A DNA stretch of 23,486 nt from a virus. Both the position numbers and the translations under genes were made by a program. Under the pieces are notes generated by a model. The model was not told where the DNA came from and did not search any database. It worked only from the letters and a program-made list of their open reading frames with translations. The stretch is from positions 1 to 23,486 of IMG/VR virus record IMGVR_UViG_3300044986_000929. One strand, written 5' to 3'. Numbering within the stretch: position 1 is the first letter of the stretch; each line of letters opens with the position of its first letter. Positions 1,838-20,994 of this stretch are shown piece by piece.

Positions 1838-1866
1838 CGACCGATAACAAAGCATTATCGCCCGAC
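1838..1866 (-). promoter_or_regulatory. GATAA-N7-TTATC palindrome, copy a
   Basis: The core is GATAA at 1843-1847 and TTATC at 1855-1859, spacer exactly 7. In the minus orientation the flanks fit the family pattern GTCGGGY-core-RGTCGA. It lies between the stop of the small membrane/zinc gene (1872) and the start of the protease-scaffold gene (1791). See the finding on the nine-copy family. Function (operator or RNA hairpin) is inferred. Confidence 0.75.
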
Positions 1867-1871
1867 GACTC

Positions 1872-2048
1872 CTAATCATGACGACAAATTTCCATCGGCA
1901 AATTGCAACCAGGACACCAGCCAGCATCCCTATCAAACCCCTCATCCACCATCTCCACCGGCCTCGCCATCACCCACAGCGCCCGGCGCAACAGCACCAA
2001 CACCACCGTCAACCACACAAGAAAAGCCGCCACCCCCAACCCACTCAT
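1872..2048 (-). CDS. Small membrane protein with C-terminal Cys/His cluster
   Basis: A 58-residue protein starting MSGLGVAAFLVWL. The ATG overlaps the stop of the MuF-type gene (ATGA), which sets this start; a longer frame beginning at 2084 would only add out-of-context residues. Residues 4-23 form one strongly hydrophobic segment (VAAFLVWLTVVLVLLRRAL), followed by Arg, so the N-terminus would be outside and the tail inside by the positive-inside rule. The tail contains CPGC, a further Cys and a His (WCPGCNLPMEICRHD), enough for one zinc site. I do not recognise the family. A membrane protein in the middle of head-assembly genes is odd; it could be a moron or a lysis-related peptide. Confidence 0.65.
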   Translation of the reverse strand: MSGLGVAAFLVWLTVVLVLLRRALWVMARPVEMVDEGFDRDAGWCPGCNLPMEICRHD

Positions 2049-2872
2049 GCTTGCTTCCTTTGATACAGCGCCGTACACCGGCACCCCGGAAACCGCAACG
2101 GATGTTGATGCCCACTACTAAAGCTCTGCGCAAACGGAATCCACCCCTGCACCTGGTTGTTGCGGCAGCCGTCACTCACCCGGGCATCGCCGACGGTGAG
2201 CCACTTCTTCTCCATCTGCAACCCGGCATCCTGCAAATCCCGCACAATCAGCGCACTCCCCGCCTCATACGCGTTCCCAATCTCCGTCACCGCAATCAAA
2301 TGCGCCCGGCTATCAATATGCGCCTGCGGCTTCTCCGCCCCCATAAAGCTGTACAGGCTCGTAATCTCCCGCGCAATCCGGTTATAACTCCACCCCTCCC
2401 GGATGCCCTCATTGATAATCGTCGCCAGATTCCCCCGCGTCGTCCCATCAATCTGGCTGATCAGCCCATACCCATGCTCCAGCAGGTAAGCCTCGGCCCG
2501 TGGATGCCGCAGGTTGAACGCAATATTCACCCCCACGTCCGCAATCGTCTCCGTCGCCCCCCGCTCCAACGCCGCCCGCATCGCCGCCTGCAACGGGTCA
2601 AACATCCGTTCCGTGCTGGCCGCCGCCACCCGCTCCCACACCGCCACCCAATCATCCGCCGACAACGCCTCTTGCAGCCGGCTCTCATCAATCCGCCCTC
2701 GCAACTGGGCAAAGCCCCGCAGAAACGCCTGTAACTGCCGCTTCATCACCACGGCAACTTTGCGCTCCGTGCGGCTCACCAGCGGATCAAGCGTCCGCCA
2801 CTTCGCCGCCACGCTCGCCGCCTCCAGGAAATGATCTAGCGCCGCTTGCAACGACTGTGTCGCCGGCGCCAT
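2045..2872 (-). CDS. MuF / SPP1 gp7-like minor head protein
   Basis: A 275-residue protein, MAPATQSLQA onward. Its C-terminal ~50 residues carry the MuF signature: 'WLTVGDARVSDGCRNNQ' then 'GHQHPLRFPGCRCTALY', matching the family pattern W..D.RvC..C...HP.CRC (cysteine and histidine cluster). The middle has a long helical region and 'REGWSYNRIAREI', typical of these proteins. They bind the portal and enter the head during assembly, sometimes carrying toxin or ejection functions; no extra toxin domain is visible here. The start ATG at 2872 overlaps the stop of the preceding gene (TGATG), so I prefer it to a possible start at 2887. It lies two structural genes after the portal rather than next to it, which is unusual. 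Confidence 0.82.
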   Translation of the reverse strand: MAPATQSLQAALDHFLEAASVAAKWRTLDPLVSRTERKVAVVMKRQLQAFLRGFAQLRGRIDESRLQEALSADDWVAVWERVAAASTERMFDPLQAAMRAALERGATETIADVGVNIAFNLRHPRAEAYLLEHGYGLISQIDGTTRGNLATIINEGIREGWSYNRIAREITSLYSFMGAEKPQAHIDSRAHLIAVTEIGNAYEAGSALIVRDLQDAGLQMEKKWLTVGDARVSDGCRNNQVQGWIPFAQSFSSGHQHPLRFPGCRCTALYQRKQA

Positions 2873-3933
2873 CAATAGACCCCCCACTTCGTATTCAAGT
2901 AGCTGCCTACCCGCTCCAGCTCAAATATTGTCAGCCCTCGGTTGTAAATCAGCACCTCACAAATATGACCATTCATTAAATTCGTCGCTGTATTGATATT
3001 GAATCGACCAATGGCAATGTTGTTCGACACCAGCCCTGCCGCATGAGCCGCTATTGTTGTAAAACTATTGTTAGACAATGCCACCGCATTGATCGGCGTA
3101 ACACTCCCGCCAAAAACAAACGGCGCATTCGCACCGATAGAGATTGGTGCGGTTCGTTGGGTTGATGGCGTCGCTACTGCCAACGATGGCTGATCCGTAC
3201 TTCCTAGCCACATACGCGTCCCAAACGTGGTCGAGTGATAAAGCGAAACCAACCCGCGCGTCGCCCCCAGTGTGGCCGACTGCTTCCCCACCCCCACAAT
3301 CGTCAGCGGATAGCTTGCATACGTCGCCACCCCATCCAAATAATCTCCGCCATCAAAACTTACCCCCGGCAACCCACCCTGCACACCCGTTTGGTACGTT
3401 GGCTTGGCTGTTCCCGTCGCCTGCATCACATGGTTCCCTGCCCCAGACAGATCCGCCCATCGCCCCACAGGGTCATTGTTCGTCGCTACCGGCGTCGCCC
3501 CTGCATCATCCTGAAAGAGCGAAGCTAGGTTGCTGGCATCGAGCCACAAGATCAAGCCAGATAACGCCGACGGCAAAAAAGCCGCAGCGTCATATTTCAA
3601 CCGGCTACCCAACTGCATCACCCCCACACTCAGCCCACTCACCCCCGAATAGGCCATCACCACCTTGCCAGCGCTGTTGCTCCACCACTGCCGCAACAGC
3701 GCCCCCACCAACCGGATCTGCCCCGCCGCCACCACCACCTGCACCGGCGCAAACAACAACCCCCGCGGATCAAAATCCGGCGTCAGCGTCACCGTAATCG
3801 ACCCCGCCCCCGCATTCTGAAGATACAAAACAGTATCGCCCGTATTCTCAAACTGATCCCCACCACTGTCCGCCGCCTGCGTCACAAACCCCGCCCCATC
3901 ATACCCCGGCGAAAAAACGGATAACTCAGCCAC
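2872..3933 (-). CDS. Virion protein with C-terminal LamG/concanavalin-like domain
   Basis: A 353-residue protein using a GTG start at 3933, with GGAGGA about 8 nt before it. Residues 1-105 form a beta-rich N-domain that resembles small head-decoration or fibre-base modules. From about residue 125 there is a laminin-G/concanavalin-like lectin domain: 'GLILWLDASNLASLF', 'VGRWADLSGAGNHV', 'GLPGVSFDGGDYL', then 'GHICEVLIYNRGLT' and 'ELERVGSYLNTKW', the classic beginning and end of such domains. It would be a surface-exposed glycan-binding virion protein. Its place between portal and MuF genes suggests a head fibre rather than a tail fibre, but this is inference. A palindrome (copy b) sits 22 nt upstream of the start. 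Confidence 0.72.
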   Translation of the reverse strand: MAELSVFSPGYDGAGFVTQAADSGGDQFENTGDTVLYLQNAGAGSITVTLTPDFDPRGLLFAPVQVVVAAGQIRLVGALLRQWWSNSAGKVVMAYSGVSGLSVGVMQLGSRLKYDAAAFLPSALSGLILWLDASNLASLFQDDAGATPVATNNDPVGRWADLSGAGNHVMQATGTAKPTYQTGVQGGLPGVSFDGGDYLDGVATYASYPLTIVGVGKQSATLGATRGLVSLYHSTTFGTRMWLGSTDQPSLAVATPSTQRTAPISIGANAPFVFGGSVTPINAVALSNNSFTTIAAHAAGLVSNNIAIGRFNINTATNLMNGHICEVLIYNRGLTIFELERVGSYLNTKWGVY

Positions 3934-3948
3934 TCGCCCTTCCTCCCA

Positions 3949-3977
3949 CCGACCGATAAGCGTTTATTATCGGTCGG
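3949..3977 (-). promoter_or_regulatory. GATAA-N7-TTATC palindrome, copy b (most perfect)
   Basis: GATAA at 3955-3959 and TTATC at 3967-3971, spacer 7. The flanks are also complementary here, so each arm is CGACCGATAA and its exact complement, a 10-bp perfect stem. It sits between the 790-residue virion protein gene (stop 3981) and the GTG start at 3933; the ribosome site begins just after the palindrome. Confidence 0.78.
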
Positions 3978-3980
3978 TCG

Positions 3981-6353
3981 TTATGCCCCGTATGTCTTCA
4001 ACAATGCGTAGCCTAGCGTTGCCCCTACCCCAGCCGTTGTCACCCTGGCCCGAAGCAAGTCAGCATTGAAATCATTGACCGTAACCTGGACTGTCGCACT
4101 TGCCACGCCGGTCAGTGCCGCGCCAATCGCGTACCACGTCGCCCCATTGTCGTCGCTACCTTCAATTTGTAGCGCCGGCGCCGTGGTCGTAATCGCCCCC
4201 ATCGACAAAACCAACTGGATATTTTTGGCCCCATTACTTTTTAATGCCACCGTCGTGGCATTCAATGTGCCAACCGCCACAGCACGATCTATAACCTGCC
4301 GATACGGTGGAGGGCTGACCATTTGGTGCGTGATTCGGTTGAGCACCCGCGTAAACGATGGGGTTGTCCCGCCAACCGTCTGCACATAGCGCAGCCGGTT
4401 GCCACTGAGCGGCAGCACCGGCGACCGATACGCGCCGGTGGTCGTAATCCGCGGAAAATCGTAGATTCGGTACCAGTTCACGCCTGAGTCGTCGCTCTCC
4501 TCAATCCCTACGTCTAGCGTCGCACTCGTCCCACTCACCGCCGTCACCACAATGTTAAATTCCGCCGCCGCCCCAACTGGCGTTGGCATAATAGTCGCCG
4601 TGGTCGTGGTCGTCGTCAGCGCGGCAGTGGCCACATCGGCAAACAACACATTGTCAGGCTCCATGTACCAGCCGTTGCCGAGTGTCACCCGACTCGATTG
4701 GGTGGCGCTCATGGAAACGTTGCTACCACCAGTAATCTGCACCGGCACGGCTTGACTGGCGTCTTGGCTCGGCCGCGGCAACATTTCAACCCGTTGCCGC
4801 TGATAAGCGAACAACCGCGCATACGAAATCCGTAGATCTGATCTCTTGATGATGCCGCCACCACAGTTGGTCGAAGCAAAGTCAGTTGGTGCGGTTGTCC
4901 CCGGCAATGGTAACAATTCCAGGCTGGTCGTACTAATGTTTCTAACTTTCCATGCGCCATCGCAATCCAGACTAGCGCCAGTCCCATCCACCCGCAACCC
5001 GGTGACATTAACATAATCGCCAATCAATAGCCCAGCCCAGGCCGCATTGCCGGTAATCGTCAGCACGCCCCCAGCCAGCACCGCACTCGCCGCCACCTGC
5101 GCAATCGCCCCTAGCGCCGACATAAGATTGCCACCATTGCAGAGCGCAACATACCCACCATAACTGGTCGCCGTCACCGCACTCCCAATCACCACGGTAA
5201 TCGTGGTCGAATTCACAACCGATGCCACCACTGTGGCCACCGCCAGGTTGGGAAAATTCGTCTGATCACGCACGCCATACAGGTTAATGTTGTCGCCTGT
5301 AGTTAGGCCGTGCGCCTGATGAAGCACCACAGTGGCCGTCGTCGTCCCGCTTTTGGCGATGCTGACTATTTGCCCGATGGGAACCGACAACCCCTTGCTA
5401 TTGATGGCTCGAATGCGCAACTTATAGAGCTTTTCACTACTCGGTACCACCTGTGTTCTAAGCAAACGGTTTGTCATCAATCCCGTACTGTCTACGGCAA
5501 CATCACTCCACTGCACACGATCCTGTTGCAAATACGACCGATATTCTGTTGTTGGTTGAAACGCATAGCTGTTGGGCGCATTTACTGCTTGCACAGATGC
5601 CGTTGAGCCTATCGTTGATTGATGAGTGCCGGTTATGCCTGCCCCCGGCAAAGTATCTCCGGCATCAGCACGCGAATAGAAACTCGCGTTGGTTGCCGTG
5701 CCATTCTCAAAAATCATGCTCGTACCATTTGCCGAATAGCCCAACGCTGGACGGTAATAAATCATCCCTGAAGCAAACGGCCCAACCGTCAAACTCGGAA
5801 TCGTTCCATTCGGCCCAGAAGCAACGGTAACACGATTTGCACTAGGTGCGGTCAATACGACTAATGCCGGGTAATTTAATCGCGAATCTGTGACCCCATA
5901 GATCCCGATCCGCATCCCTGGTAGTAGATCATGAGCGGCTATGGTGTCAATCGTCAATGTTGTCGTTGTTTGTGAAATAGCCGAAATCGCTCTTTCCGCT
6001 ACAGGGGAAATCAGTGGCCCTGTGTCCACAATTTCTATGGCAAATTCCTGCCCGAATGTGCGCTGTGATAAATGAATCCCCATCGCCATTTCTAAAGGCG
6101 TAGGAAAATTCATCACCGCGGTAACCACGCTTTCCGTCCCTGGTGCTAACGGGTCCTTTGAAATAACCAAATAGGATGCTGCGGCTGTATTCCCATCTAC
6201 CTGAATAATGTCCCCGGTCGCCTTGCTTTCCAACCACTTACTTCCCGGCGTATAAGATTCAAAGGTCTCGATAAATACCCCGCCAAATCCATTTAATGGG
6301 TTCCCCTTCTGATCAACCTCCCGAAACTTATAAATATCGCTAATCGACCCCAT
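3981..6353 (-). CDS. Large beta-rich virion structural protein
   Basis: A 790-residue protein, rich in Thr, Val, Ala, Gly and Asn, with no signal peptide or membrane segment. It contains internal repeats. Around residues 125-180 and 340-395 there is a repeated unit with 'AH.L..G..I..YGV.D...N.PAL.V', and the last ~200 residues hold two copies of a unit marked by 'ESDDSGVNWYRI' and 'GSDDNGATWYAI', which look like beta-sandwich fibre or decoration modules. The N-terminus (MGSISDIYKFREVDQKG) may be the virion anchor. I do not recognise a named family. It lies directly after the portal gene and before the LamG-type gene, so it may be a head fibre or surface appendage. The start has GAGGGGGGAATAG upstream. 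Confidence 0.75.
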   Translation of the reverse strand: MGSISDIYKFREVDQKGNPLNGFGGVFIETFESYTPGSKWLESKATGDIIQVDGNTAAASYLVISKDPLAPGTESVVTAVMNFPTPLEMAMGIHLSQRTFGQEFAIEIVDTGPLISPVAERAISAISQTTTTLTIDTIAAHDLLPGMRIGIYGVTDSRLNYPALVVLTAPSANRVTVASGPNGTIPSLTVGPFASGMIYYRPALGYSANGTSMIFENGTATNASFYSRADAGDTLPGAGITGTHQSTIGSTASVQAVNAPNSYAFQPTTEYRSYLQQDRVQWSDVAVDSTGLMTNRLLRTQVVPSSEKLYKLRIRAINSKGLSVPIGQIVSIAKSGTTTATVVLHQAHGLTTGDNINLYGVRDQTNFPNLAVATVVASVVNSTTITVVIGSAVTATSYGGYVALCNGGNLMSALGAIAQVAASAVLAGGVLTITGNAAWAGLLIGDYVNVTGLRVDGTGASLDCDGAWKVRNISTTSLELLPLPGTTAPTDFASTNCGGGIIKRSDLRISYARLFAYQRQRVEMLPRPSQDASQAVPVQITGGSNVSMSATQSSRVTLGNGWYMEPDNVLFADVATAALTTTTTTATIMPTPVGAAAEFNIVVTAVSGTSATLDVGIEESDDSGVNWYRIYDFPRITTTGAYRSPVLPLSGNRLRYVQTVGGTTPSFTRVLNRITHQMVSPPPYRQVIDRAVAVGTLNATTVALKSNGAKNIQLVLSMGAITTTAPALQIEGSDDNGATWYAIGAALTGVASATVQVTVNDFNADLLRARVTTAGVGATLGYALLKTYGA

Positions 6354-6365: not shown

Positions 6366-6394
6366 CGACTGATAATTCCTTCTTATCACTCCAC
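6366..6394 (-). promoter_or_regulatory. GATAA-N7-TTATC palindrome, copy c
   Basis: GATAA at 6371-6375 and TTATC at 6383-6387, spacer 7. It lies 18 nt upstream of the ATG at 6353 and overlaps the last codons of the portal gene (stop at 6386), so the palindrome bridges a gene junction. Flanks on the minus strand are GTGGAGT and AGTCGA, close to the consensus. Confidence 0.72.
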
Positions 6395-8020
6395 GCCTTC
6401 ACGCAACCGCACCAACGCATCCCGCAACTCTCGCACCGCCCGCACCATCATCGCCTCCACCGCAGCGCCATCCGTCGCCCCATCCGTCGCATCACTCCCA
6501 TTTGTCCCATCCACCCCCTGACCCACCGGATTCAACGCCCGCCCCTCTTCGTCGAAGAGTTTTTGTAAAATGGCATCAATATCATCCACCCCCAGCGCCA
6601 CCAACATCAATCGCGCCGTCGTCATCAGATCCAGCGTCCCCGCCGGCGCCTTCCCATCCAGCGTCGCCGCCGAAACAATCGCCCGCATCTGCGCATCCAA
6701 CGCCTCCGACCTGATCGGCGGAAAATCAATATCAATATGCGCGTCTACATCGCCCCAATCCACCGTCTCGCTAATCTCATCCCCATCCCGCTCGACGACA
6801 ACCGTTCCCAGCCCCCGCAGTGGCCCCCGTGGCGCCTTCACCGCCCACAGCAACACAAAATCAAAAATGGCTTGAAAAATATCCTGCCAAAAGGTCTGCC
6901 GGTCCCGCATCGCCAACTCAGTCGGTCGGTCAAGGCTGCTCGCCGTGGCCAGCGTCCCCACGCTCACATCGCCAAAAAACGTTTCAGGCAACCCCACCGC
7001 CGCCGCCACCATCAACAACAACCGCCGCCCATCCTCCGCCGCCACCGTCGCCCCGGATGTGCGCACCGGTGTTAAATTCACATTGTCGCCCGCCACAAAC
7101 GTACTACCCACCACCGGCGCCGGATTCGTCTCCGCCCCCAGCCCACCAGCGCCATACGTCGTACCCAGCTTGGCCTTGGCCGCCGCAATCGCACTCTTCC
7201 CGCCCGGCGTACTCAACTGGAAAGCGAATCGACGATAAGCGCGCACAATGCTCGCCCAGTCTTCCAGGAATTCCTTATAGGCCCGGCTCCAATCAATCGC
7301 CGCATAAATCTCCGAACAACCAAACTTCCAGTTAGAAAACCCGCCCGTCTTGATGTGGTAAACCGGATTCTCCCACCGCACTGGATAGCTCCCAATACTC
7401 GCCGGCTTGTTCACCGGGTTGTAACGCCAATCCGGGTAATACGCCGTCTTCACCATCGTCGCAATCGCCCCGCTGCCGGCATCCAACGTCTGTTCCGACC
7501 AAGACCGCTTGTAATACCACGGCGACTTCGCATCCTGCGGATCACACACAATCTCGATCACCTCTTCAAACTGGAACGTGCGCACCCGTACCCGCCCCGT
7601 CAACGCGTTCACAAAGAAGACAAAGAAGGTATTCCCATCCGTCGTCTGCTCCGTCTCCTTCTGCATCCGCGCCTGGTGGCTCGTCAACTCCACCTGATTC
7701 TTCGGGTCCTTCATAAAAGCGTCCAGCACGCCCTGCACATCCGGGTCACTCGCCTTCACATTCCAACCCTGACCCCACACGTACAGCCGCTGCACCTGCA
7801 CCCCGCGCTTAATCAGCGGATTCTTCAGCGACATAATCCGGCTCAACTCCGTGATCAGCCGCAACCCCTCCCGGCTAAACTCCTGATCGGCCTGCATCGT
7901 CAGCATCCGCCAACCATCCGCCTCCAACGCCATCTCCAGCGCCGCCAGGCGTTCCTGCAACTCGATATTCTCCCCTTGCAACTGCTGGATCTGCGCTGTC
8001 TGCGAACTCCGTTTAGCCAT
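6386..8020 (-). CDS. Phage portal protein
   Basis: A 544-residue protein of usual portal length. Residues ~5-33 are a coiled coil (QLQGENIELQERLAALE), an uncommon N-terminal addition. The body has typical portal features: 'SLKNPLIKRGVQVQRLYVWGQGWNVKA' early on, a 'DGNTFFVFFVNALTGRVRVR' beta wing, 'VYHIKTGGFSNWKFGCSEIYAAIDW' and 'AAVGLPETFFGD', and a helical C-terminus with an acidic/Gly linker. It would form the dodecameric DNA gate at the capsid vertex and bind the terminase. The ATG overlaps the stop of the holin-like gene (ATGGCTAA). Assignment by pattern and by the portal-protease-capsid order that follows. Confidence 0.86.
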   Translation of the reverse strand: MAKRSSQTAQIQQLQGENIELQERLAALEMALEADGWRMLTMQADQEFSREGLRLITELSRIMSLKNPLIKRGVQVQRLYVWGQGWNVKASDPDVQGVLDAFMKDPKNQVELTSHQARMQKETEQTTDGNTFFVFFVNALTGRVRVRTFQFEEVIEIVCDPQDAKSPWYYKRSWSEQTLDAGSGAIATMVKTAYYPDWRYNPVNKPASIGSYPVRWENPVYHIKTGGFSNWKFGCSEIYAAIDWSRAYKEFLEDWASIVRAYRRFAFQLSTPGGKSAIAAAKAKLGTTYGAGGLGAETNPAPVVGSTFVAGDNVNLTPVRTSGATVAAEDGRRLLLMVAAAVGLPETFFGDVSVGTLATASSLDRPTELAMRDRQTFWQDIFQAIFDFVLLWAVKAPRGPLRGLGTVVVERDGDEISETVDWGDVDAHIDIDFPPIRSEALDAQMRAIVSAATLDGKAPAGTLDLMTTARLMLVALGVDDIDAILQKLFDEEGRALNPVGQGVDGTNGSDATDGATDGAAVEAMMVRAVRELRDALVRLREGVE

Positions 8021-8185: not shown

Positions 8186-8214
8186 CGACTGATAAGAAAG
8201 AGTTATCACCCGAC
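8186..8214 (-). promoter_or_regulatory. GATAA-N7-TTATC palindrome, copy d
   Basis: GATAA at 8191-8195 and TTATC at 8203-8207, spacer 7. Minus-strand flanks GTCGGGT and AGTCGA match the consensus fully. It sits about 17 nt before the holin-like start, directly ahead of its ribosome site. Confidence 0.75.
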
Positions 8215-8256
8215 CTTTACTCCCCTCTCCGATCTGGGGAGGGCTGGGGGTAGGGT
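8213..8256. repeat. Hairpin-forming dispersed-repeat-like sequence
   Basis: CTCCCC at 8220-8225 pairs with GGGGAG at 8236-8241 across a 10-nt loop, followed on the + strand by GGGCTGGGGGTAGGGTC. This C-run/G-run pattern looks like short repeats scattered at gene ends in many bacterial genomes. It lies right after the hydrolase stop codon. There is no T-run on either side, so a simple intrinsic terminator is unlikely. Whether it is really repeated in the host genome cannot be seen here. Confidence 0.4.
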
Positions 8257-8643: not shown

Positions 8644-9272
8644 TCCCCCGTCCACTGTTTCAACAACCCTTTCAACTGGCGAATCTCCCGCTCGCACCAC
8701 GCCAGGCGTTTTTCCACGTCACCACCCACCGGCGGCTCAACTGGCGGATCAATCGGCGGTGTCACCACTTGGGCCGGCTGCCACTTCCACACCACAAACG
8801 TCGAAACATGCCATCGATTCGGCAACCCCAACCCCGTCACCGCCTCCGCATAAGGCACCAGCGGAATCGCCGACCACGGCCCCCGCTGCCCTTGCTCGAT
8901 ATAAAAGGCCGAATCGCCATTCATAAACATATTGGCCCAGCCGCTCTTCTTCTGCCCTGTATTCTCCGCAACAGCCAGATTGCCCGTAAAAAAGCGCACA
9001 TCCAGCGCCTTCGCCCGCCCGTTCTCATCCTCCACCCGCGCAAACAAATGCGTCGCCCCGCCGGCGTCATCAAAATAATCCGGCGACCCCATCGGCTTCA
9101 GATACCCATTACGCGCCCACGATGTGATGGAGAAGATCGTCCCATTCATATCCCACGATCCATCCGCTGTGGTAAAAATATCCTTCACCACATACTTCCC
9201 GAACCCAGCCGGCGGATCAATCGGCTGGATCTGCAACTTCATAAATTCCGCACCTTGGGATAACCGCGCCAT
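8640..9272 (-). CDS. Protein of unknown function with proline hinge and coiled-coil tail
   Basis: A 210-residue protein starting MARLSQGAEF; GGGAG lies 5 nt before this ATG (an alternative is the ATG at 9242). Residues 1-165 form a compact domain rich in aromatic residues ('DIFTTADGSWDMNGTIFSI', 'WANMFMNGDSAFYIEQGQRGPW', 'RWHVSTFVVWKWQP'). A Pro/Val hinge (TPPIDPPVEPPVGG) follows, then a short coiled-coil tail (EKRLAWCEREIRQLKGLLKQW). I do not recognise the family. It overlaps the hydrolase gene by 4 nt, so it may act with lysis, or be a virion protein that multimerises through the tail. Its start lies 21 nt after a strong terminator-type hairpin, implying attenuated expression. Confidence 0.65.
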   Translation of the reverse strand: MARLSQGAEFMKLQIQPIDPPAGFGKYVVKDIFTTADGSWDMNGTIFSITSWARNGYLKPMGSPDYFDDAGGATHLFARVEDENGRAKALDVRFFTGNLAVAENTGQKKSGWANMFMNGDSAFYIEQGQRGPWSAIPLVPYAEAVTGLGLPNRWHVSTFVVWKWQPAQVVTPPIDPPVEPPVGGDVEKRLAWCEREIRQLKGLLKQWTGE

Positions 9273-9284
9273 AAAAACTCCCGG

Positions 9285-9334
9285 AAAATAAAAAGAGCGC
9301 CACCAACCTGGCAAACCAGGTCAATGACGCTCTT
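9285..9334 (-). terminator. Strong intrinsic terminator or attenuator hairpin
   Basis: On the minus strand AAGAGCG (from 9328-9334) pairs with CGCTCTT (9293-9299) and CCTGG with CCAGG around a 4-nt loop (9312-9315). The 7 bases in between (9321-9327 and 9300-9306) also pair fully if G-U pairs are allowed, giving a 19-bp RNA stem. A run TTTTTATTTT follows. Because several pairs are G-U only in minus-strand RNA, the element is directed leftward. It ends 13 nt before the start codon at 9272. Confidence 0.8.
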
Positions 9335-9402
9335 ACGGCGTTCGTGGGCAATGGCCGGCAACCACCACCCGTCTCTTCAATTCACAACCAGAGGAATCAG
9401 CA
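9285..9402 (-). ncRNA. Candidate ~118-nt small RNA or attenuated leader
   Basis: A near-perfect promoter (9409-9437) and the terminator hairpin ending near 9285 frame a stretch with no credible reading frame. If the terminator works fully, the product is a ~118-nt RNA starting near 9402. If it is leaky or controlled, the region is a leader that regulates the genes from 9272 onward (unknown protein, hydrolase, holin). Start and end points are estimates from the promoter and T-run. Confidence 0.5.
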
Positions 9403-9408
9403 GCCCCC

Positions 9409-9437
9409 AGTATAGCACACCTATCGCCCCCTGTCAA
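9409..9437 (-). promoter_or_regulatory. Sigma-70-type promoter
   Basis: On the minus strand: -35 TTGACA (9432-9437), spacer 17, -10 TATACT (9409-9414) with an extended -10 TGC just before it. This is a near-consensus housekeeping promoter. It shares the segment GGTGTGCTATA and the following G-run with the promoter at 12849-12878. Confidence 0.8.
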
Positions 9438-9524
9438 TGAGAAAAATTCCCACTTAGGCGCGCCCAACCAAAAAAATAAGGCCGATGGCAAACCCATCAG
9501 CCCTATAACTCCCATCTATCCCCT

Positions 9525-9552
9525 CGACCGATAACGCCTTATTATCAGTCGC
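9525..9552 (-). promoter_or_regulatory. GATAA-N7-TTATC palindrome, copy e
   Basis: GATAA at 9530-9534 and TTATC at 9542-9546, spacer 7; minus-strand right flank GGTCGA matches the consensus. It overlaps the stop codon of the small gene ending at 9545 and lies about 90 nt upstream of the -35 box at 9437. Confidence 0.75.
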
Positions 9553-9745
9553 TCTCCTCCCGTCCCTCAATCCGTCGAAAATCCACCCCCATCATACCCT
9601 GTCTCCGTTGATGGGGTAACCGATACTCATCCAGGTTGATCTCCACCATCTCCCCCCGCACCACAATCGCCACCACATCCTGCTCCGGGTCAAACCGAAA
9701 CACCAACCGATTTCCTTCTTTTAAGCGCACATCCCGAAACGCCAT
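9545..9745 (-). CDS. Small conserved-looking hypothetical protein
   Basis: A 66-residue protein starting MAFRDVRLKEGNRL, with GAGAGG 5 nt before the ATG at 9745; a GTG at 9751 is less likely because the ribosome site would touch it. The sequence reads as alternating beta strands ('NRLVFRFDPEQDVVAIVVRGEMVEINLDEYR') followed by a basic/acidic tail. No family recognised. It follows the terminase large subunit by 9 nt and is followed by palindrome copy e, so it is probably the last gene of the terminase transcript. Confidence 0.6.
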   Translation of the reverse strand: MAFRDVRLKEGNRLVFRFDPEQDVVAIVVRGEMVEINLDEYRLPHQRRQGMMGVDFRRIEGREESD

Positions 9746-9754
9746 ACACACCTC

Positions 9755-11909: not shown

Positions 11910-12641
11910 TCAGCGCGCTAGCCGCTCCAATTCATTCGCATACGACGCCAACTCCCGCGCAATGCTCCCCGTATAGACCCACAGCGCCACCTCCACCGCC
12001 ACCACCAGCGCCAGCCCAAACAGAATCACCGTCAACCACGTCCGCATCACCCGGACATCGGATCGTAGCTCATAGACCGATACCAGCAACTCCTGCCATT
12101 CCCCCTCACGCTCCCGATCCCGATCCCGGCTACGATACGCCCCATCCCCCGCCCGGTAATACCGATATTTCCCGCTCGCCGGCCGCACCAACTCATAAGC
12201 TTCCTGATAATCCGGCGTGCGCGCCAACTCCCTGGCCAGCAGGATCGCCAATCGGCTCGCATCCCGATCCTGCACCTCGGCAATCGTGCAAATCGTATCA
12301 GCGTGCGTCGTCGCCATAATCGCCAACGCCACCTCCTCACTCTCGCACGAATTCAGCACACACAACCCCGCCGCCGCCGTCCGCACATACTGCCCCACCC
12401 CATCAATACTCAGCAGCCCATCACTCAACAAAATCCCCTGCGAACTCCCATGCGACGCAAACCACACCACATCATACGGCCCCGCCTCAATCGCCGCCGC
12501 AATATCCCGATCCCGCACCACCCCCGGCAACACCACCGCCTCATGATGCCCCGCCACCGCCGCCACCTCCGCCGCCACATTCGGCAGATCCGAATGCGCC
12601 GGCGCCACCACCAACACCCGCAACTTCCCCACCATATCCAT
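11910..12641 (-). CDS. CHAT-type caspase-like protease with C-terminal membrane anchor
   Basis: A 243-residue protein. Residues 7-160 look like a compact CHAT (caspase/HetF) domain: a beta strand 'KLRVLVVAPAHSDLP', then 'DVVWFASHGSSQGILLSDG' with candidate catalytic His64, then 'AGLCVLNSCESEEVALAI' with candidate Cys99, the expected His-Cys dyad of clan CD. Residues 165-185 are a charged linker (repeated Arg/Asp/Glu) and 201-224 a single hydrophobic helix, followed by a short helical tail. The protease would face the cytoplasm. It has no TPR or sensor domain. Bacterial CHAT proteases often act in defence and cell death, for example by cutting gasdermins or regulators, but no partner of that kind is visible here. 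The ATG at 12635 is an alternative start. Confidence 0.78.
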   Translation of the reverse strand: MDMVGKLRVLVVAPAHSDLPNVAAEVAAVAGHHEAVVLPGVVRDRDIAAAIEAGPYDVVWFASHGSSQGILLSDGLLSIDGVGQYVRTAAAGLCVLNSCESEEVALAIMATTHADTICTIAEVQDRDASRLAILLARELARTPDYQEAYELVRPASGKYRYYRAGDGAYRSRDRDREREGEWQELLVSVYELRSDVRVMRTWLTVILFGLALVVAVEVALWVYTGSIARELASYANELERLAR

Positions 12642-12643: not shown

Positions 12644-12784
12644 TTATCCCATTACTCCCATCAATCCCCCGACCGATAACAAACCCTTATCACCCGAAGG
12701 TGGGTGTGGCCAGTCCCGCAACCAACCACACCCAAAACCCGTCGTCGCCAACATATATATAATCGTAAATAAATGGTAAATCAT
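12644..12784 (-). CDS. Possible 46-residue membrane peptide ahead of the CHAT gene
   Basis: The frame starts MIYHLFTIIYMLATTGFG with GGAG 4 nt before the ATG, and ends 2 nt before the CHAT start (TAA GG ATG), an arrangement that fits translational coupling. Residues 2-20 form one hydrophobic segment. The C-terminal third (SGDKGLLSVGG...) is encoded by palindrome copy f and the purine-rich leader, which weakens the case for a selected protein. The start lies 11 nt after the T-run of a terminator hairpin. It may be a leader peptide controlling CHAT expression, a membrane partner, or not a gene. Confidence 0.4.
   Translation of the reverse strand: MIYHLFTIIYMLATTGFGCGWLRDWPHPPSGDKGLLSVGGLMGVMG
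12669..12697 (-). promoter_or_regulatory. GATAA-N7-TTATC palindrome, copy f
   Basis: GATAA at 12675-12679 and TTATC at 12687-12691, spacer 7; minus-strand flanks TTCGGGT and GGTCGG. It lies 34 nt before the CHAT start. Just upstream (12692-12735) minus-strand RNA could fold a small CACC-TTCG-GGTG tetraloop hairpin and an 8-bp GGGTGTGG/CCACACCC stem, so this leader is structured. Confidence 0.72.
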
Positions 12785-13038: not shown

Positions 13039-13935
13039 TCACCCCAAATATTCCACCACCGCATCCCAGTGGCTTTCGACTGTTTGCAGCAAGCGAATCC
13101 CCTCATTCTCCAACGCCACCATCCGTTCATACGGCTCATTATCCCGAATCCCTAGAACGGCGCTTTCGATCAAGCCAACCAGCACCTGCGGCTCCAGCGC
13201 ATCCAATTCCCAACTCTCATCACCATACAACTCGATATAAGAAGCAAAGCGCGAATCCGACTCTTTCGCCGGGTTGGGTGGCGGCTGATACTCATCAATC
13301 TGGCTCATATTGAGCGCCAACCGTCGCAACTCGACGCCCCCCATAAACATCTCAAGCCGATCCCGGTTATCCCTGGTCATATCAATCCCCGAAGGGTCAT
13401 GGTCGCCTAAGTGAAAAATAATCGGCTCATACCCAGCCTGCATATACCCCCGCAACCGTTGCCCCGCCCCCCACTGCTCTGACTGCGAGTTATAGCCCTT
13501 GCACGCAAAATACGGCACATCCAAGCGACTACACACCCCCGCAATCACCCCCTCTAACGCCTGCTTCTCGATCCACACTTCCGGCCGGTAGCGCTGCCCC
13601 TCCCACTTGTCAACCCGATAACTGCGCCGCGCCGACCGAATAATCTCAGCCGGCGTTGACCAATGCCCATTCTGGCGCAAATTCCGCCCACGGTCCTCAA
13701 TCGCATTCCAATCAATCAGCCCCGCCAACCGCGCATTGCTAACCAGATCACCAAGCCGCTTGTAACTGCGCTCCGTGTTCTCAATAATATTCCGACTCAC
13801 CATCTGATAATAAAGCTGCCGCAAAGTGAGGGAAAACCCTTGCCGTTGATAGTCCACGATCACCGCATTGCACCGCTCGATCAACGCCAACGAATCAACC
13901 TTGAACTGCTTTTCGATATATGAAATCTTAGGCAT
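13039..13935 (-). CDS. Toprim protein resembling Spo11 / topoisomerase VI subunit A
   Basis: A 298-residue protein starting MPKISYIEKQF; an earlier in-frame ATG at 13977 reads through the leader and is less likely. Residues 35-50 'SLTLRQLYYQMVSRNI' resemble the catalytic-tyrosine motif of Spo11/Top6A (R-x-I/L-Y-Y). The Toprim part has 'PEVWIEKQALEGV' (acidic Glu123) and 'FHLGDHDPSGIDM' (Asp178, Asp180). Near-identical layouts occur in many phage and prophage proteins, whose exact role is not established; DNA nicking or topology control during replication is a reasonable inference. There is no partner like subunit B here. It follows palindrome copy g and a purine-rich leader. Confidence 0.75.
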   Translation of the reverse strand: MPKISYIEKQFKVDSLALIERCNAVIVDYQRQGFSLTLRQLYYQMVSRNIIENTERSYKRLGDLVSNARLAGLIDWNAIEDRGRNLRQNGHWSTPAEIIRSARRSYRVDKWEGQRYRPEVWIEKQALEGVIAGVCSRLDVPYFACKGYNSQSEQWGAGQRLRGYMQAGYEPIIFHLGDHDPSGIDMTRDNRDRLEMFMGGVELRRLALNMSQIDEYQPPPNPAKESDSRFASYIELYGDESWELDALEPQVLVGLIESAVLGIRDNEPYERMVALENEGIRLLQTVESHWDAVVEYLG

Positions 13936-13984
13936 ACCCCCCCATCCTATCTCTCGTATCTGTCCTATTTGTCCCATCCAAGGT

Positions 13985-14012
13985 GGAGTGATAATAGAGA
14001 ATTATCACCCCA
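13985..14012 (-). promoter_or_regulatory. GATAA-N7-TTATC palindrome, copy g
   Basis: GATAA at 13990-13994 and TTATC at 14002-14006, spacer 7. Here the flanks differ from the other copies (GTGGGG and ACTCCA), yet the two arms stay complementary over about 13 bp with one G-U. This looks like compensatory change. It lies about 55 nt upstream of the Toprim start at 13935. Confidence 0.72.
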
Positions 14013-16979: not shown

Positions 16980-16983
16980 CAAA

Positions 16984-17059: not shown

Positions 17060-17174
17060 GGTGTATAATCACCAATCAGCCGCTGGCCATCCTTTACCGG
17101 CCCCAGCGGTCAGGGTGATGGGTGGCGCCGCAAAACACCCACCCATCACCAATCCTCAATCTTCAATTATCAAT
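17060..17174 (-). other. Structured leader: three hairpins plus heptamer repeats
   Basis: Reading leftward: four heptamers ATTGATA, ATTGAAG, ATTGAGG, ATTGGTG (17150-17174 region); a perfect 12-bp inverted repeat GGTGATGGGTGG/CCACCCATCACC (17114-17125 and 17139-17150, loop 13); CCGCTGG/CCAGCGG (17080-17086 and 17103-17109) with extra CC/GG pairs inside; and GGTG/CACC around TATAAT (17060-17073). The 228-nt gap 16980-17207 has no credible gene. It looks like a regulatory leader for the membrane-protein cluster. Confidence 0.5.
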
Positions 17175-17207
17175 TCCCAGCCATCACCCCCTTTCACTGG
17201 CCATTCA

Positions 17208-17414
17208 TCAATGCGCCGTCGCATCATACTCCGGCACAAAATAACTCGGCACCCGCACTACCTTCGCATCCCGCTCCAACTTGATATGCAACAGATCATA
17301 GGGCTGCCCATTATGCACCCGAAACTCATTCGTTGGTTCAATCTGCTGAATCATCCCCCGCCGCCCATGATACCGGCAACCCTTCCTCCGAATCGTCACA
17401 AACCCCGCTTGCAT
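17208..17414 (-). CDS. Small hypothetical protein with SH3/KOW-like look
   Basis: A 68-residue protein starting MQAGFVTIRRKGCRYHGRRG. The pattern (beta strands, 'KGCRYHGRRGMIQQI', then 'VHNGQPYDLLHIKLERDAKVVRVPSYFV') resembles small five-strand barrel modules such as KOW/SH3-like domains, which can bind RNA or protein. This is a structural impression only. GGGGAGGA lies about 8 nt before the ATG. The start overlaps the gene upstream by 19 nt. Confidence 0.58.
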   Translation of the reverse strand: MQAGFVTIRRKGCRYHGRRGMIQQIEPTNEFRVHNGQPYDLLHIKLERDAKVVRVPSYFVPEYDATAH

Positions 17415-17632
17415 CGCCCATTCCTCCCCTCAATCCTATAAGTCCTATGCTTCTGCCCCTCGACCGATAATCCCTTATTATCACCCGACCACACCACGTT
17501 ATCTTCCAGATACCGCAACCGCCTTTCCGCCGACGCCAACCGCTGGTTCACCCGCTCCTGCACCAGCGCCACCACCATCACCATCACCCCCAACGCCACC
17601 CCCGCCGCCACCACCACCACCAACCAATTCAT
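17396..17632 (-). CDS. Small membrane protein with coiled coil
   Basis: A 78-residue protein starting MNWLVVVVAAGVALGVMVMV. One membrane span covers residues 3-24, followed by a coiled coil (VQERVNQRLASAERRLRYLED), a layout seen in phage holin-like and spanin-like proteins, though the location is far from the lysis genes. GGGAGG lies 5 nt before the ATG, which overlaps the upstream stop (ATGA). Its last ~30 codons run through palindrome copy h ('SGDNKGLSVEG'), so the C-terminus may be a late extension. Confidence 0.6.
   Translation of the reverse strand: MNWLVVVVAAGVALGVMVMVVALVQERVNQRLASAERRLRYLEDNVVWSGDNKGLSVEGQKHRTYRIEGRNGRCKRGL
17461..17488 (-). promoter_or_regulatory. GATAA-N7-TTATC palindrome, copy h
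   Basis: GATAA at 17466-17470 and TTATC at 17478-17482, spacer 7; minus-strand flanks GTCGGGT and GGTCGA are full consensus. It lies within the coding frame of the small membrane/coiled-coil gene and 52 nt before the gene starting at 17414, the same distance as copy a from its gene. Confidence 0.72.
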
Positions 17633-18099
17633 CGCACCTCCCACGTCGAATAAACCCCCGTCACCACATACCCCAACCGCACCGGATCCCACTCCCGCAT
17701 CGCCCGCCACCGCCCAATCACCGGCCACTCCCCCATCGTCACCAGCACCGTCACCAACTCACTCGCCGGCAACCGCCCCACCGGCTCATCCAGCGGCCTG
17801 GACGATTTCCGCCATGTCTTCCGCACCGCCTTCGCCGCCCCCACCCGCTCCTGCGCCTCCAAACTGCGCGACTTGGTGGCCCGCCCCGTCAACTCCTCCG
17901 CCAATCGCCGCCACCCCGCCGCCCCCACAATCGCCAACCGGCTCATGTGCCGCCGCCCATCACTCACCCCCTTCGGCACCCACCGGTCAAAGTCATACAG
18001 CGTCGGCGCCCACCGCCCCGCCAAATGCTCATCACTAATCGCCAACAACACCCCCCGCAACTCATCCCGATTCAATAACCGCTTCCGCTTGCCTCCCAT
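17629..18099 (-). CDS. Putative DNA-binding hypothetical protein
   Basis: A 156-residue basic protein starting MGGKRKRLLNRDELRGV, with GAGGG 8 nt before the ATG; an in-frame extension to 18144 has no ribosome site. Residues 20-70 ('APTLYDFDRWVPKGVSDGRRHMSRLAIVGAAGWRRLAEELTG') resemble helical DNA-binding segments of phage and homing-endonuclease-associated proteins, with 'GAAGWRRLAEEL' as a recognition-like helix. A second copy of this flavour may lie near the C-terminus ('GEWPVIGRWRAMREWD'). It sits immediately beside the candidate replication origin, so an origin-binding or regulatory role is plausible, but unproven. Confidence 0.58.
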   Translation of the reverse strand: MGGKRKRLLNRDELRGVLLAISDEHLAGRWAPTLYDFDRWVPKGVSDGRRHMSRLAIVGAAGWRRLAEELTGRATKSRSLEAQERVGAAKAVRKTWRKSSRPLDEPVGRLPASELVTVLVTMGEWPVIGRWRAMREWDPVRLGYVVTGVYSTWEVR

Positions 18100-18144
18100 C
18101 GCCAAACCCTCGCAACTTTTATTACACCAATTTCCCCCAACCAT

Positions 18145-18411
18145 CCGAAGGATAAAAATTATCCTTCGCTCATCCTTCGCTCATCCTTCGCTATCCTTCG
18201 CTCTACTTTAATTTTTATAGTAGAAACATACATAGAATGACCCCAATGCCTTCGATCCTTCGCGTTTTGGCCCAACTTTTGGCGGTTTTTGCGAACTATC
18301 GAAAAACAACACGATTTATTAGCGAAGGATCGAAGGCAAAATCGGCGGTAAATCAAAAAAAAATATTTTTTTTTGCCAAAACCCCGATTTTGCCTTCATC
18401 CTTCGCAACTC
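18145..18411. other. Candidate replication origin with iterons
   Basis: No credible gene. The 9-mer ATCCTTCGC occurs at 18161, 18172, 18183, 18193, 18255 and 18398, and inverted at 18322-18330, seven copies in 250 bp. The first four are spaced 10-11 nt apart, about one helix turn. An AT-rich stretch follows, including A9-TA-T9 near 18354-18373. It lies directly after the primase-helicase gene and before a basic small protein. Iterons plus an AT-rich unwinding element beside a replication gene is the classic origin layout. Confidence 0.6.
18322..18406. repeat. Long imperfect inverted repeat inside the candidate origin
   Basis: The arm at 18322-18345 and the arm at 18384-18406 are reverse complements over 23 of 24 positions, with one single-base gap. 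The 38-bp centre contains a second palindrome, A9-TA-T9, and each outer arm ends in an iteron. It could extrude as a cruciform, or act as a bidirectional terminator after the primase-helicase gene. Confidence 0.7.
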
Positions 18412-20994
18412 TCATTGCAAGGGCTTCCCAATCCCATAGCGCTTCATCAACGCCTCTAGCTCACTTTCCTCCAATTCCACCATCGACCGGCGGCTAACGG
18501 GATGCTGCCGTTTCCCAATATTGACAATCCCCAACTCCTCGCGCAGGAGCTTCGTCACCAACCGCGGATGCACCTTCGTCTCCGGGTCAAGGTCGGCCAG
18601 AATCTCCTTTGCCCGTTCAGCAATCCCCTGTGGCGTCAAATCCCGCAAATCATTCCCCAGCAGATCCTTCTTATTGTTGTAATAAATATCCACCAACGAC
18701 TGCACCACAATCGCCGGCATCGTCAACTGGCGATCACTGATCAGCGTCTGGTTATAGGCCGACACAAAAATATCAATCTCCCGGCGCATCTCCACATCTT
18801 CAATAATGCTCTTCAGCGCCATCGTCACCTGGTTCAACCGTGGCTCCACACTCTCATTGGCCAGCGACTCATCCACCTCTACCCGCCGATGATTCCGCAA
18901 CCGATACATCAGCAGCTTATTGCGCAGCGTGTTCGACCTAGCCCAAAACTTATCATTCAACATAAAGGGGATACCCGGCCTGGGTCGCGCCGTCGTTGTC
19001 CGCTTCGTCAAACAGCGGCTCTCCACCGCCCGATCCCCAAAGGGCTTCCGTGTCGCCAGAATCTTCGGCCCAAACACGTCATAAGTCTCCGGCGCATAAA
19101 TGTCCGTGTCCGGCTCCTTCTCGGCGCGCATCACGCACCCGCCCTTGTAATAGCCCACATTGATAATCTTGATCAGCTCACTCTCCGCATCACTGTTCGC
19201 AAAGTCCGCCTCATCCATCACCAGCGTCCCCCGGAACATATCAATCAGCCGGAAAATCGGACTCGCCGTACTGGCGCCACTCACCAACATCGGCCGATAA
19301 CACAACACCCCAATCGTCTGAATAAACCGCGTCTTCCCCGTCCCATAATCGCCCAACGCTCGCAGATAGGGCAGATTCTCAAAGCAGTCATACAGCCAGC
19401 TAAAAAGAATGTAATAGGCCGCCAGCTTCTCATAAAAGGGATCACCAAAGTCAAACCAATCATGCAAGAAGGCTTGGATCTCCTTCACCAACTGCTTCTC
19501 CCCGCCATACTCCTCCGCCTTCTCCGGGAAAAGCACAATCCGCTGATTCCGAATCACCCCCAGCGTTGCCGGGTAGGGCAAGCAGGTCACATTACCCACA
19601 TCCACCGTCTTCTGGTACTCAATCTTCCCGCCCGGCTGCCGCACCGCATACATGCACACCCCGCCGCCCAGCGCATCCCAATTGATCGTCTGCTCCCACA
19701 CCAGGCCACCCACCGCCCCACCCGCGCTATACTCATAGCGTGCCGGCGTCTCCTTTTCCTGGTTGGCCTTCTGCTCTTCTTGGTTGGCCTTCTGCAATCG
19801 GTTAAACTGACTCACCTTCCCCCCACACAGATGCTTGGCTAAATCCGGCTTTAGGTCCGTCGCCACCATCGTATCCAGCGCCTCATAAATGCTAAAGAAC
19901 CGCCGCAGCAACGCCGTCCGCTCCTCATCCTTCGCCGCCGCCGCCTTGATCGCCAACCCCTCCAGCGCCGTCAAACTATCATCCAGCATCTGGCGTACAT
20001 CCTCCGCCCCGGCCCCCGCCTTCACCGCCTCCGCCGCATCCTTGGCCTCAGCCGGCCACCGCACCACCCGGCACAACGGATCAATCCCCAGCGCCAACTC
20101 CAGCGCCTTCGCCCGCCCCGCCTCATCATTATCCAGCGCCACATGGCTAACCTGCTCCGTGAGGGTAGAAACCTCCCCCTTCACCCCACACAGCGCCATC
20201 GAGGAGACACCAATCTGCCCCAGCGCCACCGCATCCGCCTGTCCCTCCACCAACAACACCGCCCCACTACACGAGACGTCCGGCGTATTCACATACGGCC
20301 GCTTCGGCCCCGCCATCTGTTCCGGCAAATTATAGTGGCGTTTCTTCTCATGGATGGCCCGCCCGGAGAGATAAACCACCTTGCCCCGCTCCCGGTGGAC
20401 ATAAACCAGGTGGCCCTGCGGAATGCTCAACACCGCCTTCGCCAACGGCATCTCCAACAACCCCGCCTCCCGCAACTGCGCATGAAGCGGCCTCACCGGG
20501 TCGGCTGATAATAATGGCTTATCCGTCGAAAGCGGGTTATACCCCAACCGCTCCCGGCGCATCGTCGCCTCCGTCCAGCCCCGGCCAGCGCAATAATCCC
20601 GCGCCACCTGCCCATCCGGCCCCCACAACAGCGCCGCATAATGCCCCGCCGCCAACTCCAAAATCTGCGCCCGCTTCTGCTCCTCACTCTTCCGGCTCTC
20701 CCACGCCTGGCGCTCCGCCTCCGTCTGCGCCTTCAGCTCCACCCCGGCCAGCCGCGCCAACTCCTCCAGCGCCACCCGAAACCCACAATTCTCCACCTGC
20801 TGCATATACCAATCAAAAATATCCCCGCCCACCCCCTTGCTAAACCAATACCACTGCTGCTTATCCGTCCAAATCTTCAGGCTGTCATGCTCAGTCGTCG
20901 TCAATGTCTTCCCCCGCCCGATGACCGTCAACGTCTGCCCAATCAACTCCTCAATCTTAAGTTGACCCTTGATCTCCTGAATTACACTATCCAT
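18412..20994 (-). CDS. Primase-helicase with degenerate zinc-finger domain
   Basis: An 860-residue protein. Residues 10-85 fit a CHC2-type primase zinc-finger fold by pattern ('QQWYWFSKGVGGDIFDWYM', then 'ALEELARLAGVEL'), but the zinc-binding Cys and His are missing. The TOPRIM domain has 'VLLVEGQADAVALG' (Glu250) and 'HVALDNDEAGRAKAL' (Asp288, Asp290). A linker with a heptad tandem repeat (QKANQEE) leads to a C-terminal ATPase with Walker A 'LGDYGTGKTRF' (547-557) and Walker B 'LVMDEADF' (591-598). The last ~100 residues look like a winged helix. It would make primers and unwind DNA at the fork. Its gene abuts the iteron region. Confidence 0.88.
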   Translation of the reverse strand: MDSVIQEIKGQLKIEELIGQTLTVIGRGKTLTTTEHDSLKIWTDKQQWYWFSKGVGGDIFDWYMQQVENCGFRVALEELARLAGVELKAQTEAERQAWESRKSEEQKRAQILELAAGHYAALLWGPDGQVARDYCAGRGWTEATMRRERLGYNPLSTDKPLLSADPVRPLHAQLREAGLLEMPLAKAVLSIPQGHLVYVHRERGKVVYLSGRAIHEKKRHYNLPEQMAGPKRPYVNTPDVSCSGAVLLVEGQADAVALGQIGVSSMALCGVKGEVSTLTEQVSHVALDNDEAGRAKALELALGIDPLCRVVRWPAEAKDAAEAVKAGAGAEDVRQMLDDSLTALEGLAIKAAAAKDEERTALLRRFFSIYEALDTMVATDLKPDLAKHLCGGKVSQFNRLQKANQEEQKANQEKETPARYEYSAGGAVGGLVWEQTINWDALGGGVCMYAVRQPGGKIEYQKTVDVGNVTCLPYPATLGVIRNQRIVLFPEKAEEYGGEKQLVKEIQAFLHDWFDFGDPFYEKLAAYYILFSWLYDCFENLPYLRALGDYGTGKTRFIQTIGVLCYRPMLVSGASTASPIFRLIDMFRGTLVMDEADFANSDAESELIKIINVGYYKGGCVMRAEKEPDTDIYAPETYDVFGPKILATRKPFGDRAVESRCLTKRTTTARPRPGIPFMLNDKFWARSNTLRNKLLMYRLRNHRRVEVDESLANESVEPRLNQVTMALKSIIEDVEMRREIDIFVSAYNQTLISDRQLTMPAIVVQSLVDIYYNNKKDLLGNDLRDLTPQGIAERAKEILADLDPETKVHPRLVTKLLREELGIVNIGKRQHPVSRRSMVELEESELEALMKRYGIGKPLQ
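19753..19794 (-). repeat. Tandem 21-bp coding repeat in primase-helicase linker
   Basis: Two consecutive 7-codon units encode QKANQEE and QKANQEK (residues 401-414). They lie in the linker between TOPRIM and ATPase domains, where length changes are probably tolerated. The unit probably arose by slippage. Confidence 0.7.
20502..20528 (-). promoter_or_regulatory. GATAA-N7-TTATC palindrome, copy i (inside the primase gene)
   Basis: GATAA at 20507-20511 and TTATC at 20519-20523, spacer 7; minus-strand flanks TTCGACG and AGCCGA are less exact. It is the only copy deep inside a coding region (residues about 157-165, STDKPLLSAD), which could make it coincidental or a roadblock-type site. Confidence 0.5.

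Follow-up and report, generated by a model that had tools for sequence, protein, structure and literature searches.

Introduction

Among the described systems closest to the sites analyzed here, the attP of lambda-like phages has arm-type sites, repeated half-sites that flank the core, and mycobacteriophage L5 has stoperators, many dispersed and mostly intergenic sites that are short, asymmetric, set by the direction of transcription and bound by a repressor of the helix-turn-helix (HTH) type. Dispersed centromere sites occur in plasmid prophages, and the pdif modules of plasmids are acted on by the host recombinases XerC and XerD. A dif site pairs half-sites of 11 bp around a centre of 6 bp, and centres of 6-8 bp are normal for Xer sites (PMC5357621); rearrangements of pdif modules between equal or nearly equal spacers have been reported (PMC13141974). 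Here we analyze a 23,486-nucleotide stretch of viral DNA (the window; IMG/VR record IMGVR_UViG_3300044986_000929, of which it is the entirety), in which the palindrome GATAA-N7-TTATC is repeated along the genome. Based upon the sequences compared below, we cautiously favor the view that these palindromes are dif-like sites, bound by tyrosine recombinases of the phage and having a role related to recombination. The E. coli dif site has the inner letters ATAA/TTAT, as do the inner arms of the phage sites.

A repeated palindrome in a temperate phage

The exact pattern occurs nine times in the window, with no additional copy at one mismatch, whereas 100 dinucleotide shuffles, scanned with one mismatch allowed, gave a mean of 0.21 copies and at most 2. 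When spacers from 0 to 30 were scanned, nine dyads were found at 7, one each at 3 and 28, and none at any other spacing. Eight of the nine sites lie outside the listed genes, overlapping them by at most 2 nt (binomial P 2e-8), and the ninth, at 20507, lies within the primase gene. For this count the genes were picked by hand from the list of open reading frames (ORFs), omitting doubtful ORFs over 12675 and 17466, and on that list the non-coding share of the window is 8.5% (coding about 91%). Thus, the nine copies and their placement at gene junctions in eight cases, both reported in an earlier note on this DNA, are real features of the sequence.

With one mismatch over its 23,486 bases, the window matches part of a longer record, G002 (39,625 bases), a temperate phage of ~39 kb that contains it. 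The genes of G002 (terminase, portal, Mu-F-like protein, head protease, capsid and decoration proteins, as well as cell wall hydrolase, primase and integrase family) are those of a tailed temperate phage. Because a second record, G015, matches G002 at both its ends, the G002 genome is circular or permuted. ARAGORN called no tRNA in the window, Rfam gave no match there, and a DNA search of INPHARED phages in 'near' mode also gave no match. The nine sites and the two genes most relevant to them are as follows (genes outside the window, here and below, are crude longest-ORF picks).

1843..1859 (G002 30661-30677): dyad 1, upstream of gene 742-1791
3955..3971 (G002 28549): dyad 2, between genes 2872-3933 and 3981-6353
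6371..6387 (G002 26133): dyad 3, extending over the portal stop codon; a G003 site occupies the corresponding position
8191..8207 (G002 24313): dyad 4, upstream of the portal gene
9530..9546 (G002 22974): dyad 5, with the genes for the terminase large subunit and a 68 aa protein upstream of it
12675..12691 (G002 19829): dyad 6, upstream of the CHAT-domain and terminase genes
13990..14006 (G002 18514): dyad 7, upstream of gene 13039-13977 (PHROG 'DNA topoisomerase')
17466..17482 (G002 15038): dyad 8, between genes 17208-17414 and 17629-18144
20507..20523 (G002 11997): dyad 9, within the primase gene; the same 17 bp lie in the G007 primase gene
18412..20994, minus strand: primase gene carrying dyad 9
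22402..23486, minus strand: tyrosine recombinase Rec2, incomplete because the window ends within it, leaving the first ~118 nt outside

The site extends beyond its core. Each comprises two arms of ~11-13 bp (outer YCGRSY in this phage, inner GATAA) around a central region of 6-7 bp, and the one-direction consensus of 42 sites from G002, G003, G007 and G017 reads YCGACT-GATAA-BAANNNV-TTATC-RSYCGR. The flanks GTCGGGY and RGTCGA given in the earlier note are two forms of a single half-site, YCGRSY-GATAA; the site is therefore an imperfect dyad of ~29 bp, and its dyad symmetry explains what had been taken for compensatory change in the flanks. The spacer, described as non-conserved, proved to be constrained. 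The base flanking GATAA is never A in the 92 half-sites of the G002 group (including G029, G033 and G034; 80 of the 92 come from G002, G003 and G007), the base flanking the inner arm is not A in 93 of 94 half-sites of G045, G035, G041 and G038, and most spacers read BAANNNN in one direction. The half-site adjoining BAA is also nearer to CGACT than its partner (P 0.0006, from 39 of the 42 sites after exclusion of three ambiguous ones). Dyad 2 has the longest symmetric arms of the window. Relative to the main coding strand, spacer polarity is mixed in G002, G003 and G007; spacer orientation almost alternates in G007, but not in G002.

Arrays of sites in related and distant phages

G002, G003 and G007 were found through their terminase, not through the site; the terminase scan gave 11 loci, a capsid scan added G045, and the distant phages were found through Rec1, a second tyrosine recombinase of the phage. 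In the first set of 17 records the exact pattern occurred in ten. Five of these records, G001 and G012-G015, represent the G002 phage again, G017 was kept solely on its two sites, and the one site of G016 (36% GC in the part read) was set down as chance. From a second set of 17, all chosen by the pattern, we kept G025 (the same phage as G002), G029, G033 and G034, and set the other 13 aside as chance hits.

Exact sites number 16 in G002 and 12 each in G003 and G007, and five junctions carry a site in both G002 and G003. The earlier note had looked to related phages for conservation, and the sites are kept in the relatives of G002. In all of the array genomes together, there are 10-16 sites per genome, roughly one every 3,000 to 4,500 nt. 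The convergent junction before the early region carries a site in G002, G003 and G007, G033 has one exact dyad, between Rec1 and an HTH gene in the attP region, and G004 (67% terminase) has no exact site and no Rec2. In G045, 11 dyads keep the core ATAA-N7-TTAT with changed outer arms (mostly CTGKWC), and the 18.5 kb fragment G029 has six dyads, four with a 6 bp centre and two with 7 bp. The distant phages G035, G041 and G038 have other outer arms and retain an inner TAA-N6/7-TTA: ATAA-N7-TTAT occurs 13 times in G035 (0.2 expected), ATAA-N6-TTAT 10 times in G041, and [CA]TAA-N6-TTA[GT] forms an array of 13 in G038. An arm ending ACYG stands on the left in 13 of 13 G035 sites, and on the right too in one, although the genes of this phage lie on both strands; its spacer polarity is mixed. 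By eye, about 8 of 10 sites in G041 have their arms one way, and the outer arms pair at about 5 of 8 positions in G035 and about 3 of 8 in G041. Inspection of the sequence preceded the definition of the G038 pattern, the G029 variants and the G045 list, so the P values for these three are post hoc, and one odd N6 row at 27511 in G045 and one N7 row in G041 were dropped. A weak excess of TAA-N6-TTA with irregular flanks in G042 and G043, weaker still in G036, was not counted as an array. A literature search found no report of such arrays in tailed phages.

The sites are also evenly spread. Eight records have at least six sites (93 in all). In these, the coefficient of variation of the gaps was 0.23-0.44, under that of random placement in all eight (P <1e-4 to 0.008) and, in G002, G003 and G007, also under that of random sets of ORF starts. 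The longest gap was shorter than chance at 0.05 in G002, G003, G007 and G035, borderline (0.052) in G029, and not shorter in G045, G041 and G038. Within each genome the spacers are all different. The site in the primase gene is the same 17 bp in G002 and G007, and in each gene it takes up two TTA codons, which are rare: G002 has just 3 TTA among 92 Leu codons, and G007 six among 88.

Phage recombinases and the attP region

According to the earlier note, no obvious cognate repressor gene was visible in the window, yet there are candidate cognate genes: the Rec2 gene lies at 22402-23486, and Rec1 and an HTH gene are found elsewhere in G002. Rec2 is complete there (8916-10118, 400 aa), whereas Rec1 and the attP half-sites are located outside the window. 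Rec1, Rec2, an HTH repressor, a ribbon-helix-helix (RHH) protein and a 68 aa protein are common to G002, G003, G007 and G033. Rec1 resembles XerA/XerD, and its catalytic residues are invariant in the three proteins aligned. Rec2 has the catalytic residues R226, K255, H341, R344, H367 and Y376, also present in G003 and G007, and these six are invariant in all seven aligned Rec2-like proteins, down to 27% identity. Among the 17 records that reach 15 kb, 11 have both recombinases (E<=1e-6); seven of these 11 have an array, and G033 has its one dyad. Rec2 identity to the G002 protein is 62-70% in phages with the CGACT arm and 33% in G045, whose arm has changed, whereas Rec1 goes from 46-76% to 44% and the HTH protein from 41-44% to 37%. 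The steeper fall of Rec2 is weak support for Rec2 as the binder. Rec2, or Rec1 and Rec2 together, probably bind the sites. Beyond these records, Rec2 relatives at 23-31% identity were found in 14 INPHARED records; a search for close Rec2 in genome contigs gave 57 stretches, none of which was confirmed.

The same half-site also occurs singly. Within ~350 bp upstream of Rec1 there are four single half-sites each in G002, G003 and G007 and, in G033, three and a variant; far from Rec1 we found two in G002, one in G003, two in G007 and one in G033. Between the attP half-sites of G002, G003 and G033 we recognized tRNA 3' halves by eye (no tool called them), and none was seen by eye near Rec1 of G007. 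Inverted attP half-sites stand 17-18 bp apart (in G033 by eye), which exceeds the 7 bp dyad spacing by about one helical turn. The attP region of G045 has one single half-site, a dyad and other short repeats (ATCCGTGA), and repeats of this kind lie near Rec1 in G037 (5 of 6 hits), G039 (4 of 4) and, by a loose pattern, G040 (5 of 10). Repeated half-sites of the ATCCGTG type around attP in G037, G039, G040 and G045 resemble the tRNA anticodon-stem sequence of the core.

A similar palindrome in rhizobial genomes

A scan of genomes with the pattern CGRSYGATAAN7TTATCRSYCG returned 38 stretches with one place each, scoring 4 to 32 bits compared with 23-43 for the 42 phage sites. Chance does not account for all 38: 16 of them form one family of palindromes, ACGA(C/G)(C/T)GATAA-N7-TTATC, all in Rhizobiales/Hyphomicrobiales by title (L107, L114, L120, L122, L124, L136, L141, L143 and eight more, with phage-like arms). 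The remaining 22 are taken as chance or unrelated, nearby genes having been checked for some. Seven of the 16 rhizobial loci hold one integrase family, 76-99% identical to the integrase of L122 and Phage_integrase by Pfam in the four scanned; in L122 the gene begins 21 bp from the palindrome. Genes for DUF1403 and relaxase proteins near several of the palindromes suggest conjugative elements.

Homology between these loci often breaks close to the palindrome. In one Bradyrhizobium, the contigs L124 and L136 are 99.9% identical over 5,510 bp, and this shared stretch stops at the palindrome; homology is lost 31-53 bp from the palindrome start in the pairs L114/L120, L122/L124, L122/L136, L124/L143 and L136/L143; and L120 and L136 have a common right side from 57 bp before it. 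In these draft contigs, the breaks fit a crossover that may occur at the palindrome. Because of the rhizobial result, our confidence in the phage palindromes as recombinase-bound dif-like sites moved from evenly balanced to slightly in favor.

How the sites may work, and alternatives

If the palindromes are bound in this way, their most likely use would be exchange or resolution in register. Strand exchange would take place between equal sites on different genome copies, which could be dimers or concatemers, or the genomes of co-infecting relatives; the differing central regions would keep unequal loci apart, and the same half-site is used singly in the attP region next to Rec1. We regard strand exchange of this kind as somewhat less likely than not. 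More tentative still is a broader model, in which locus-specific dif-like sites split the genome into segments of ~3-4 kb that the recombinase pair swaps or resolves in register, such that mosaic exchange between related phages would be programmed and site-specific.

Several results weigh against dif-like sites served by the phage recombinases. Save at contig ends, G002 and seven near-identical records (one of them the window) are collinear, and none shows a rearrangement at a site. The differences among spacers are not beyond chance (identical pairs, 0 compared with 1.1 expected, P 0.30; pairs with one mismatch, 7 compared with 11.4, P 0.09), and we rejected spacer uniqueness as proof of a 'barcode'. 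Sites within the primase gene and, by ORF call, within a long late gene are unneeded for module exchange, and the 17-18 bp separation of attP half-sites would not serve strand exchange. Three of the 11 records with both recombinases (G037, G039 and G040) have no array, the Rec2 match of G040 has a stop near its start, and the Rec1 ORF found in G041 is only 134 aa. The structure model of Rec2 (pLDDT 48) was too poor and was not used. Among the rhizobial loci, which are draft contigs, L122/L143 and L139/L142 are alike through the palindrome, and the integrase has no detectable relationship to Rec1 or Rec2; at other genome loci with the pattern, ordinary genes lie nearby.

The best-placed alternative is prophage-wide silencing, with Rec2 acting at dispersed sites as a roadblock to transcription or a master repressor, in the manner of MrpR on SPBRE in SPbeta. 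MrpR is a repressor of recombinase fold with ten binding peaks in SPbeta promoter regions, and it retains three of seven catalytic residues (PMC10516654), whereas the six checked are invariant across the Rec2-like proteins. Placement just outside genes for eight of the nine window sites would suit such a repressor, the two half-site spacings (7 and 17-18), which differ by about a helical turn, are in keeping with a protein that binds DNA cooperatively, and roadblocks would agree with an even distribution that includes sites within long genes; sites at convergent junctions and a constant arm orientation on both gene strands of G035 speak against silencing. We consider silencing unlikely, but it stays a strong rival because the seven near-identical records lack rearrangement and spacer uniqueness does not exceed chance.

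Less probable is an architectural or partition role, in which evenly spaced anchors fold or segregate the phage genome. Spacing more even than that of ORF starts and a site inside primase agree with this. No ParA or ParB family scored above cut-off among some 30 phage proteins scanned, which cover part of the G002 genes (the HTH protein has a sub-threshold HTH_ParB match), and the tRNA-type attP suggests integration rather than plasmid life.

We think it improbable, to a greater degree, that the dyads are operators of the Cro/CI-type HTH repressor (G002 6581-7078) or of its divergent RHH neighbor, even though both genes are conserved in G002, G003, G007 and G033. The promoter region between the two has no GATAA dyad; it carries instead the palindrome ACAATGTATTACATTGT, or a close form, at G003 8183, G007 17163 and G033 21930, with no clear copy in G002, and ACAATGTATTACATTGT is likely the repressor operator of these phages. 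Long half-sites and single attP half-sites would also be unsuited to one HTH dimer. The earlier note's reading of the palindromes as control sites holds up in so far as they are phage-wide symmetric sites of a protein-binding type; as promoter operators or stoperators like those of L5 they fare poorly, given the site at a convergent junction, the one in primase, the even spacing and the constant G035 arm orientation.

A passive repeat, either a small mobile palindrome or a host repeat scattered by chance, is very unlikely: three G007 sites do adjoin a shared GC-rich repeat, but the sites are evenly spaced, recur at five junctions of G002 and G003, changed their outer arms together genome-wide in G045, and include a coding-region site with rare codons in primase. 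The weakest proposal, also raised in the earlier note, is that of conserved RNA hairpins for processing or antitermination, which we discard since outer arms pair only partly in G035 and poorly in G041, in G002, G003 and G007 the asymmetric spacer has no single direction with respect to the main coding strand, and Rfam found no match, although some coding-strand flanks can pair with G-U and arms are partly complementary in the arrays.

Even, genome-wide sites that are kept while Rec2 drops to about 27% identity point to a selected function that is itself genome-wide. Strand exchange, if that is how the sites act, would give phage mosaicism a mechanism open to testing; under silencing or folding, enzymes of integration would have turned into genome-wide organizers of DNA. 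In addition, the phages offer pairs of recombinase and site with several arm specificities.

Neighboring genes and other repeats

Gene 742-1791, downstream of dyad 1, is a head maturation protease by PHROGs and precedes the decoration and capsid genes in G002. The gene at window 11910-12641 (minus strand) encodes a CHAT-domain (caspase-like) protein directly upstream of the terminase genes, and relatives lie near the terminase genes of G007 and G004. The protein of gene 13039-13977 (minus strand) matches PHROG 6247, 'DNA topoisomerase' (E 1e-109), and a relative adjoins Rec2 in G035. A GC-rich repeat, CCCCAGCCCTCCCC, stands beside several dyads (G007 23637, 28283 and 32213; window ~8210-8250).

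Relative to the structural genes, the early region, which runs from Rec1 to primase, has opposite orientations in G002 and G007. The left end of this inversion coincides with a site, but none remains at the right end in G007, so the inversion was not used as evidence. G044 (loci L173 and L174) has thirteen TTGG-N7-CCAA dyads over 37 kb, a different kind of palindrome, and several of these dyads in L102 share the fixed spacer CTCTTTA. In G033 (locus L078), a ~37 bp repeat (GTTGCACTCGACGACTCGACAGAGCGAGTACTGAAA) is present five times at ~35860-36205, with copies ~72 bp apart and the last two intervals alike; the group looks like a small phage-borne array of CRISPR type.

Comparison with known systems

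The sites differ from L5 stoperators and HTH operators: the phage site is a dyad whose orientation is not tied to gene strand, and no such site occurs in the promoter region of the repressor itself. As in lambda attP, repeated half-sites flank the attP core of the phages (G002, G003 and G033), but here the half-site is also paired and spread genome-wide. SPbeta likewise combines dispersed phage sites with a phage protein of recombinase fold; SPBRE is a 15 bp motif at promoters and MrpR has mostly lost its catalytic residues (PMC10516654). Rec2 is not of this type, a recombinase fold without the catalytic set.

In 7 of 16 loci the rhizobial palindrome, ACGAC(C/T)GATAA-N7-TTATCRGTCG, has a tyrosine recombinase gene nearby; each locus (at most 8 kb) holds a single copy, and the integrase is not detectably related to either phage recombinase. 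The pdif modules of Acinetobacter plasmids also bring many dif-like sites with varied central regions into one replicon (PMC13141974). The phage array differs in its even spacing and in having a site inside a gene. No rearrangement was found in the seven collinear records, and no genome has equal spacers.

As described for Xer/dif sites, the phage sites have two arms of ~11 bp, partial dyad symmetry and a centre of 6-8 bp. The phage also has two tyrosine recombinase genes, candidates to serve the sites, with catalytic residues present in those aligned. The outer arms differ from dif, the recombinases are encoded by the phage, and there are 10-16 sites per phage genome rather than one per replicon near the terminus. 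Thus, while number, even spacing and the phage-encoded pair set these sites apart, their geometry and gene partners are, judged from sequence, a match to Xer/dif sites.

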